Positions 50,926-54,985 of a stretch of 64,000 nt of DNA are shown here, piece by piece. The translations under genes and the position numbers were made by a program. Position 1 is the stretch's first letter; the number at the start of each line of letters is the position of its first letter. The stretch comes from an uncultured Litoreibacter sp. (lineage in GTDB: Bacteria > Pseudomonadota > Alphaproteobacteria > Rhodobacterales > Rhodobacteraceae), in NCBI RefSeq assembly GCF_947501785.1, contig NZ_CANMXB010000001.1, positions 1,445,048-1,509,047 on the forward strand, given 5' to 3'. Under the pieces are notes generated by a model, which was not told the DNA's origin, did no database searches, and saw only the letters and a program-made list of their open reading frames with translations.

Positions 50926-52902
<1,977 letters not shown>

Positions 52903-52944
52903 GGGATGCTCCTGCTAACGCGATGTGTGGCTACGGATCGCTAA

Positions 52945-53001
52945 AGTGATTCGCACTGATTCGTTATTCGAATCAATATCGCGAATCAGAGTGATTCGCA
53001 C
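52945..53001. promoter_or_regulatory. Cluster of five GANTC (CcrM-type) sites within TGATTCG heptamers before rpoD
   Basis: The heptamer TGATTCG occurs at 52947, 52957 and 52992 on + and as CGAATCA at 52969 and 52982. Each contains GANTC. The five sites are 10, 12, 13 and 10 bp apart. The middle pair makes the perfect inverted repeat TGATTCG-TTATT-CGAATCA, and AGTGATTCGCAC is a 12-bp direct repeat (52945, 52990). It ends 43 bp upstream of the rpoD ATG. Confidence 0.75.
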
Positions 53002-53020: not shown

Positions 53021-54985
53021 TTACTTTCGTTTCTTTACCCAAATCTCACCGTCGATGAGACTTTGCAGATACTGGGACATAGCGCCCCGATCCTCGCCGT
53101 CACCCTCATCGTCCGACATGGACTTGCGGTTGGCCGCTTCGCTTGCTTCCGCCGCCTGCCCGACCCGCCAGGTCAGCCCTTCATCGGCCACGCCTGCAAG
53201 GTCTTCGACGGCATCTGCCACTTCACGCTGCACGCCGCGCCGCGCTTCCAATTTGGCCAGCTCCTCTGCCAGGGTCATTCGGGTAAGGTCGTCATCCGCC
53301 CCGCTTCTGGTGGCGGGGACAGTCTGCACATGGCGCAGCGAATACAGCTTTTCAAGGGGCGCGGGGCCCAGTTCGGCCTCTAAAATTTTACGCAACACCT
53401 CGCGGTCGGTTTCCTCGACATGACGCAAGAGGCCGGCAATCAGCGCCCGGTGGTCGGGGCCATGCAGGTCCAGCACTTCGAGGTCCGACAGAAACTCCCC
53501 GATCAGCTTGGGGTGATTCACAAGGATCGCCAAGATCACCGCCTCGCGCACCCGCTCTTCAACATCGGTGCTTTGCGCCAGCAGGGAATTCTTGGTCGAC
53601 GGGACCGCGACGCCCTTGCTTTCAAACCGGCCCTTGCCGGATTTGGACCAGTTGCCACTGTTGCCCTTCTGCCACCCGCCCTTTTCGCGCTGTGGGCGTT
53701 GGGCGGCGAACAATTCGGACCGCAGGTACTTGATCTCGGCCGCGTAGTGGTTGCGCAGGCCTGCATCGGTGATCTTGCCCAGCGCCGCCCTTAGCGACTG
53801 ATCCAGCGCCGCGCGCCGTTCGGGGCTGTCCAGGACGATGCCGTCGGTTTCGCGCTGCCATAGCAGATGCACCAGCGGTTTGGCGTTCTCCACCAACGCG
53901 CGCATGGCCCCTGCCCCTTTGTCTCTCAGCAGGTCGTCCGGGTCCAACCCTTCGGGCAGGATGCAAAAGCGCAGCGACTGGCCGGGGCCAATGAGTGGCA
54001 ACGCGAGGTCGATGAGCCTGAGCGCCGCGCGTTGACCCGCCGTGTCGCCATCGAGCGTGATGATGGGTTCCGGCGCGATGCGCCAGAGCATTTGCAGCTG
54101 CATCTCGGTCACCGCCGTCCCCAACGGCGCCACGGTCGCGCCAAAACCCGCCTCGCTGAGCGCGATCACGTCCATGTATCCCTCGGCCACGATCAGCGGC
54201 GCGCCCTTGCCGGACGCCTCCCGCGCGGGGCCGTGGTTGTAAAGCGAGCGGCCTTTGTCGAACAGTTCCGTCTCAGGCGAGTTCAGGTATTTGGCGTTAT
54301 CCGCGGGGTCCATCGCACGGCCACCAAACGCGATGCAGCGCCCCCGCGCGTCGCGGATCGGGTACATGATACGGTTGCGGAACGTGTCGTAGGGCTTCTT
54401 TCCCTTGTTGGACGCCTTGGCGAGACCCGCAGCCAAAATCTGGTCTTCCTTGACGCCTTTGCCAGTCAGATGGTCCCACAGATTTTGCCAGCCCTCCGGC
54501 GCGAAGCCGATTTCCCAGCGGTCCAGCGCCTGCTCGTTCAGCTGACGGCCCGTCAGATATTCGCGGGCTGCGGTGCCTTGGCTGGTCTTCAGCTGCAGCT
54601 TGAAGAACTGCACGGCTTTTTCCATCACATCCGCCAGCTCGGCGCGGCGGTCCTGCTTTTCCTGCGCTTTGGGGTCGCGGGCCGGCATGGTCATGCCGCA
54701 TTCGCGGGCCATGATCTCAACCGCTTCCATGAAGGAGACGTTTTCGGTTTCCTTGATGAACCCCAGCGCGTCGCCTTTGGCGTGGCAGCCGAAGCAATAG
54801 TAATAGCCCTTCTTGTCATCCACGTGGAAGGAGGCTGATTTTTCCTGATGAAACGGGCATGGCGCCCACATGTCGCCCTTGCCGGGCTGCGACTTGCGCG
54901 CGTCCCACACGACCTTGCGCCCCACCACCTGCGCGATCGAGGTGCGGGTCTTCAGCTCGTCAAGAAATCCGGGTGGCAGGCTCAT
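53021..54985 (-). CDS. dnaG: DNA primase DnaG
   Basis: A 654-residue primase. The zinc-binding domain reads 'APCPFHQEKSASFHV' and 'YYCFGCHAKGD' (CHC2). The catalytic core has 'FGGRAMD', the Toprim 'IVAEGYMDVIALSEAGF' and 'LDGDTAGQRAAL'. The C-terminal ~200 residues are the helicase-binding part and include 'ESKGVAVPSTKNSLLAQSTD'-like linker text. dnaG-rpoD is a conserved pair. A 44-bp gap follows from the small membrane-protein gene. Confidence 0.96.
   Translation of the reverse strand: MSLPPGFLDELKTRTSIAQVVGRKVVWDARKSQPGKGDMWAPCPFHQEKSASFHVDDKKGYYYCFGCHAKGDALGFIKETENVSFMEAVEIMARECGMTMPARDPKAQEKQDRRAELADVMEKAVQFFKLQLKTSQGTAAREYLTGRQLNEQALDRWEIGFAPEGWQNLWDHLTGKGVKEDQILAAGLAKASNKGKKPYDTFRNRIMYPIRDARGRCIAFGGRAMDPADNAKYLNSPETELFDKGRSLYNHGPAREASGKGAPLIVAEGYMDVIALSEAGFGATVAPLGTAVTEMQLQMLWRIAPEPIITLDGDTAGQRAALRLIDLALPLIGPGQSLRFCILPEGLDPDDLLRDKGAGAMRALVENAKPLVHLLWQRETDGIVLDSPERRAALDQSLRAALGKITDAGLRNHYAAEIKYLRSELFAAQRPQREKGGWQKGNSGNWSKSGKGRFESKGVAVPSTKNSLLAQSTDVEERVREAVILAILVNHPKLIGEFLSDLEVLDLHGPDHRALIAGLLRHVEETDREVLRKILEAELGPAPLEKLYSLRHVQTVPATRSGADDDLTRMTLAEELAKLEARRGVQREVADAVEDLAGVADEGLTWRVGQAAEASEAANRKSMSDDEGDGEDRGAMSQYLQSLIDGEIWVKKRK

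Follow-up and report, generated by a model that had tools for sequence, protein, structure and literature searches.

The gap between dnaG and rpoD in the window, the whole 64-kb stretch of DNA that we analysed, contains a tight array of GANTC sites, and this array is a real, order-wide conserved feature of the Rhodobacterales. We consider it probable that the array is a CcrM-methylated, multi-site GcrA control region of the rpoD promoter. The arrangement suggests that the primary sigma factor gene itself is under methylation control.

Both flanking genes are encoded on the minus strand and the gap between them is 118 bp. The upstream gene is the dnaG primase (53021..54985, minus strand), which scores 396.8 bits against the NCBIfam dnaG cut-off of 283.6, and the gene downstream of the array is rpoD (50926..52902, minus strand), which encodes the primary sigma factor of 658 aa and scores 904.7 bits against the RpoD equivalog cut-off of 555. 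An antisense open frame of 658 codons (50968-52944, plus strand) spans all of rpoD and is probably a composition effect. Five GANTC sites (52948, 52958, 52970, 52983 and 52993) are packed into 52 bp of the dnaG–rpoD gap (52947-52998) with spacings of 10, 12, 13 and 10 bp, and each is embedded in TGATTCG or CGAATCA, exactly as the original prediction had described them. We lettered the sites A to E in the direction of the rpoD strand. Site A (52992..52998, plus strand; GANTC at 52993-52997) reads TGATTCG on the plus strand and CGAATCA on the rpoD strand. Sites B (52982..52988, minus strand) and C (52969..52975, minus strand) read TGATTCG on the rpoD strand, and sites D (52957..52963, plus strand) and E (52947..52953, plus strand) read CGAATCA on the same strand. 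Sites C and D together form a perfect 7-5-7 inverted repeat (52957..52975), and the 12-bp direct repeat AGTGATTCGCAC occurs on the plus strand at 52945..52956 and again at 52990..53001; both repeats had been claimed earlier and both are exact. Sites A and B form a perfect 8-3-8 inverted repeat (52981..52999), which the earlier description did not include. The helical phasing that it proposed did not hold, since the Rayleigh length at 10.5 bp is 0.59, with P = 0.28 against random spacing for the five positions. Outside the genus, placement on one face at multiples of 10.5 bp is not found either (R 0.12 for 171 pair distances), and the recurrent spacings that stand out are 10 bp, in the genus, and 13 and 21 bp.

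The array lies far above the GANTC background. Depletion of GANTC is known in Alphaproteobacteria (PMC3973325), and the window contains 50 sites where 270 are expected from shuffles; the density in the loci of relatives is about 1 per kb. Nowhere else in the window or in the relatives' loci examined is GANTC equally dense. When 50 sites were placed at random, five fell within 45 bp in none of 20,000 trials, and first-order Markov simulations (200 x 64 kb, each with some 270 sites) gave a maximum of four in 26 of 200 runs and never gave five. TGATTCG occurs five times in the window, compared with 13 in shuffles, and all five copies are inside the array. The 3.89-Mb genome holds 51 copies, including the five in the array, and 61 copies of the backward control word. 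Therefore, the heptamer is not enriched as a word genome-wide, and its clustering is what stands out.

Two further clusters were observed in the genome. The second tight cluster, outside the window at C1:1434255-1434292 (L048 ~1757-1793), comprises four GANTC in 37 bp, two of them in TGATTCG, and lies between mraZ (over its NCBIfam cut-off) and an ApbC/Mrp-like gene (below its cut-off), beside TTATCCACA, which we take to be a DnaA-box-like word. The other, at C1:2422904-2422937 (L049 ~1905-1938), has four GANTC in 34 bp, contains no TGATTCG and lies shortly downstream of an MsrQ-like gene, which scores 129.9 bits (cut-off 130).

To describe the conservation of the array, we used a genus set of 20 rpoD loci, composed of that of the window's genome and those of 19 relatives (G019 yielded none). 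All 20 loci have four to six GANTC within 130 bp before rpoD. In the genus alignment, sites A, B and C are nearly fixed, and sites D and E shift and flip, varying among relatives in both position and orientation. CGAATC is found at site A in 20/20 loci, site B is flipped in two of the 20 (L006 and L007), and site C, the most conserved, is TGATTCG in all of them. Site C is also strong in 41 other Rhodobacterales loci, but those loci were anchored on site C. We then considered 58 Rhodobacterales loci. Some of them come from scanning GTDB species genomes, where the 80 best of 499 confirmed stretches were used, and the others come from further genomes. Close relatives do not lack the array: in this sample of the scan's best 80 of 499 plus further genomes, the 260 bp upstream of rpoD hold YGAKTCG at least twice within 61 bp in 57 of the 58 loci, and at least three times in 50 of them, whereas none of 888 control windows, each 260 bp long and taken from 53 of these loci, contains two. 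The lone exception is G034, a genome that lacks a RAMA match and whose best CcrM-like protein reaches E 1.8e-10. Among 56 loci from other orders in the best 80 of 499, the 400 bp upstream contain at least two sites within 61 bp in six, one site in 19 and none in 31, and the six are all Rhizobiales/Hyphomicrobiales by title. YGAKTCG is absent from the 400 bp ahead of the RpoD match in both Caulobacter genomes examined (L116 and L120). In four Rhizobiales loci (L084, L092, L096 and L102), inspection by eye shows a TTAA-N7-TTAA-like, CtrA-box-like element about 40 bp ahead of the TGATTCG that precedes rpoD.

The sites before rpoD also differ in sequence from other GANTC sites. YGAKTCG, on either strand, is matched by 190 of the 215 array sites (within 130 bp, 53 Rhodobacterales loci) and by 31 of the 247 GANTC elsewhere in those loci (Fisher P ~4e-66, kinship uncorrected). 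The array sites mostly vary as YGAKTCG allows, with T or C in the first position and T, rarely G, in the centre, and the extended motif TGATTCG/YGAKTCG is matched by all five sites of the window. According to the hypothesis proposed for Caulobacter, GcrA activates only methylated TGATTCG, 'more broadly, YGAKTCK', and YGAKTCG is given in the discussion (accessible text of PMC7987155). Since activation by GcrA is reported for just this heptamer, the 'unknown protein' that had been offered as one reading of the array is most likely GcrA. The assignment as CcrM-type sites is supported; the sites are conserved before rpoD across the order, and ccrM is present in the genome. GcrA is known to bind sigma70 and to prefer methylated GANTC, and together with RNA polymerase containing sigmaA/sigma70 it promotes open-complex formation at m6A promoters (PMC7403470). 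At ctrA P1, it covers 12-13 nt at the -35 region if the DNA is hemi-methylated and >40 nt if it is fully methylated (PMC3667746), and in Caulobacter a GANTC between -35 and -10 accompanies activation at 40-60 min (PMC4287350), as given in the accessible parts of these papers.

Both proteins are encoded by the window's genome. GcrA matches Pfam PF07750 with 158.5 bits (cut-off 26.9), and 36 of the 45 positions in its DNA-binding domain agree with Caulobacter GcrA, residues 28-45 all being identical (PDB 5yiu and 7ye1). Both the DNA-binding and the sigma-binding parts align with chain G of PDB 7ye1. CcrM aligns to PDB 6pbd over residues 15-366 with an E value of 1.5e-165, and its RAMA domain exceeds the Pfam cut-off. 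Against the NCBIfam equivalogs, GcrA scores 163.2 (cut-off 280; the only family matched) and CcrM 634.8 (cut-off 830; the best family); both are below the cut-offs, and by these models neither therefore qualifies as a strict equivalent of its Caulobacter counterpart. PF07750 is matched in 47 of the 61 genomes of the relatives sample, the window's genome included, and 46 of these are over the cut-off; RAMA is matched in 48 of the 61. In family genomes of at least 95% completeness, evenly drawn from a larger group, RAMA matches are found in 287 of 296. The Pfam GcrA model is also over its cut-off in the control Sulfolobus acidocaldarius, an archaeon, which shows imperfect specificity. A GANTC pair is located about 57 bp before the ccrM start codon (C1:2864502-2864516; L182 1003-1017).

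The nine RAMA-negative genomes of the 296 were checked by protein search. In G294, CcrM is matched partially (84% over residues 10-247), and this genome was counted as CcrM-positive. No CcrM ortholog was found by domain or protein search in the other eight (G034, G069, G097, G131, G137, G206, G213 and G225), where the best match has an E value of 3e-28 and 38% identity (G131). Two of these were set aside, G131 because its rpoD was not found and G097 because the rpoD start was not located, and six were judged. The array is missing in four of the six (G034, G069, G213 and G225) and present with three sites each in two, G137 and G206, for which missing contigs are possible. In the same sample, 21 of 22 genomes with CcrM have the array, and G061 has CcrM without it. 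The comparison of array and CcrM presence (Fisher P = 0.003, kinship uncorrected, assemblies maybe incomplete) leans towards a tie between the array and CcrM. GcrA is kept in G034 despite the absence of a detectable CcrM ortholog. Of the four genomes with neither the array nor a CcrM ortholog, three have an RpoD with 71-75% identity, and in G225 the identity is 81% over residues 201-657.

A consensus promoter scan of the dnaG–rpoD gap gave no promoter-like site, so the start site of rpoD is a guess. A possible -10-like element, TATTGA (52973..52978, minus strand), has no -35 match, and the TA before site C is conserved in the genus. Our guess is that this conserved TA belongs to the -10 element, which would place site A near -29 and site B near -19. 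We infer that the sites are methylated, that GcrA binds them and activates, not represses, the promoter, and that its output is linked to replication. CcrM would methylate the adenines in the GANTC cores, and GcrA, carried on sigma70 in RNA polymerase, would recognize methylated TGATTCG. Several sites at once could hold GcrA at the rpoD promoter, and this tethering may assist the opening of a promoter in which no -35 element is recognizable. The product of the target gene is sigma70, the known partner of GcrA, and the circuit would therefore close on itself, with sigma70 synthesis driven by GcrA–sigma70. When the replication fork passes, the entire array would become hemi-methylated in one step, which would change rpoD output. 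The multiplicity of sites could raise the occupancy by GcrA–RNAP and steepen the response to replication-borne hemi-methylation.

These data can also be read in other ways. A sequence-specific protein other than GcrA may bind the TGATTCG repeats cooperatively, with GANTC being incidental or with methylation tuning that protein. The heptamer, and not GANTC alone, is the conserved unit, the spacings of 13 and 21 bp recur, and in Brevundimonas, according to the accessible text of PMC7987155, GcrA-activated promoters lack the extended motif, GcrA targets do not favour the heptamer, and a repressor that depends on methylation was proposed. However, the heptamer varies mostly as the Caulobacter GcrA motif does, the array is missing in four of the six CcrM-less relatives that were judged, and the spacing and orientation of the sites turn over, so that we regard a different protein as unlikely. 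Conserved heptamer flanks (190/215) would be left unexplained if methylation acted without GcrA, by a direct effect on the access of RNA polymerase, with the promoter most active in the hemi- or unmethylated state. Such a switch finds a parallel in the gcrA promoter region of A. tumefaciens, where six GANTC occur in 250 bp and activity drops upon methylation, even in engineered E. coli (PMC11514494), and the sites before rpoD do cover the region where a promoter is expected; we nevertheless give it a rather low probability.

The repeats might instead act as RNA, through a hairpin by which the dnaG transcript is attenuated, processed or terminated. The fold of the rpoD strand is better than that of shuffled versions (z -2.46, with 2 of 200 shuffles as good), a terminator-like stem was called at 52980-53000, and the inward-facing A–B pair is kept in 18 of 20 genus loci. 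However, none of the eight consensus pairs shows a compensatory change, a weak test since five of the eight never vary, and the reversal of site B in L006 and L007 breaks the RNA stem while keeping the DNA site. Outside the genus, an inward-facing pair within 11 bp is present in only 8 of 33 loci, and the only Rfam match, with E = 1, is no better than chance. A conserved RNA hairpin or terminator was therefore set aside as unlikely, and we hold a role of the repeats as RNA to be very improbable. Chance, or a mobile repeat element, has next to no probability. Short two-copy repeats are often chance matches, and same-strand YGAKTCG pairs within 16 bp number two in the genome compared with three for the backward control pattern, so the pair as such is neither rarer nor commoner than the control; yet both pairs fall in the array, and the conservation at rpoD in 57 of 58 loci (the scan's best 80 of 499 plus further genomes) refutes this explanation. 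Several points weigh against the GcrA–CcrM reading itself: the motif data from Brevundimonas, the Caulobacter rpoD loci without YGAKTCG, the genomes G061, G206 and G137, the lack of a consensus promoter, the folding of the rpoD strand and the NCBIfam scores below cut-off. They also include possible repression by GcrA, as suggested at an A. tumefaciens antisense promoter (PMC11514494), and a survey of ctrA promoters in which the share with GANTC is 45% in Rhodobacterales, the lowest of the orders, and methylation perhaps has no major regulatory role there (accessible text of PMC8116508).

Other genes were considered as targets of the same control. In 21 of 21 genus genomes (L195-L215), two GANTC 19 bp apart (YGATTCG, then TGATTC) lie about 68-97 bp before a response-regulator gene. 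This OmpR-type gene, ChvI-like by eye, is a candidate second target. nusG was rejected as a second target, as its heptamer lies in a hairpin loop with a T-rich run behind it, an arrangement that by eye looks like a terminator; a shared heptamer thus need not be a promoter site. The loop position was seen by eye in most loci with GATTCG before nusG (L225-L246). Apart from the array, the genome has 45 other TGATTCG loci, 21 of which are intergenic by a simple ORF caller; the P values for this count assume a noncoding share of 10-15%, and the nusG false lead is included in the set.

Most knowledge of GcrA and CcrM comes from Caulobacter, where ctrA is a model target. In Rhodobacterales, where the share of ctrA promoters with GANTC is low, the order-wide rpoD array indicates where methylation control may act instead. 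As a tentative and rather doubtful extension, rpoD could be the most heavily marked GcrA–CcrM target across the Rhodobacterales, with the sigma70 supply putatively set by the methylation of one promoter and stepped by replication. If this is true, global transcription capacity would follow the methylation state of the rpoD promoter, a sigma cofactor would feed back on its own sigma factor, and rpoD would replace ctrA as the main methylation-controlled gene in the order. The rpoD array provides a single promoter for testing whether the main sigma factor is tied to replication. We found no report of an array before rpoD among the listed papers on GcrA, CcrM or GANTC with rpoD or in their accessible passages, in a search that lay mostly outside subscription papers and outside the B. 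abortus GcrA ChIP-seq target files (PMC6813329). Most likely, the array is an unusually dense GcrA–CcrM control region on the sigma70 gene.

The array shares several features with the GcrA–CcrM promoters of Caulobacter such as ctrA P1 (PMC3667746, PMC4287350 and PMC7987155, in their accessible parts), namely GANTC in the promoter region, TGATTCG/YGAKTCG, the presence of gcrA and ccrM, and an essential-type gene downstream. However, more than one GANTC is found in only 11 of the 96 cell-cycle-regulated Caulobacter start sites with a GANTC within 50 bp upstream (PMC4287350), whereas the array has four to six sites in 130 bp, on the sigma70 gene itself, in 20/20 genus loci. The A. tumefaciens gcrA promoter region, with its six GANTC in 250 bp, is similar in its dense GANTC before a regulator of the GcrA–CcrM circuit; there, methylation represses, the gene is a different one, and the accessible text describes no heptamer array (PMC11514494). 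Finally, the rpoD promoter of Brucella abortus is bound by CtrA (cited in PMC2877005) and thus also places a cell-cycle regulator on an alphaproteobacterial rpoD, although the regulator there is CtrA, and at the rpoD array of the Rhodobacterales it is most likely GcrA.
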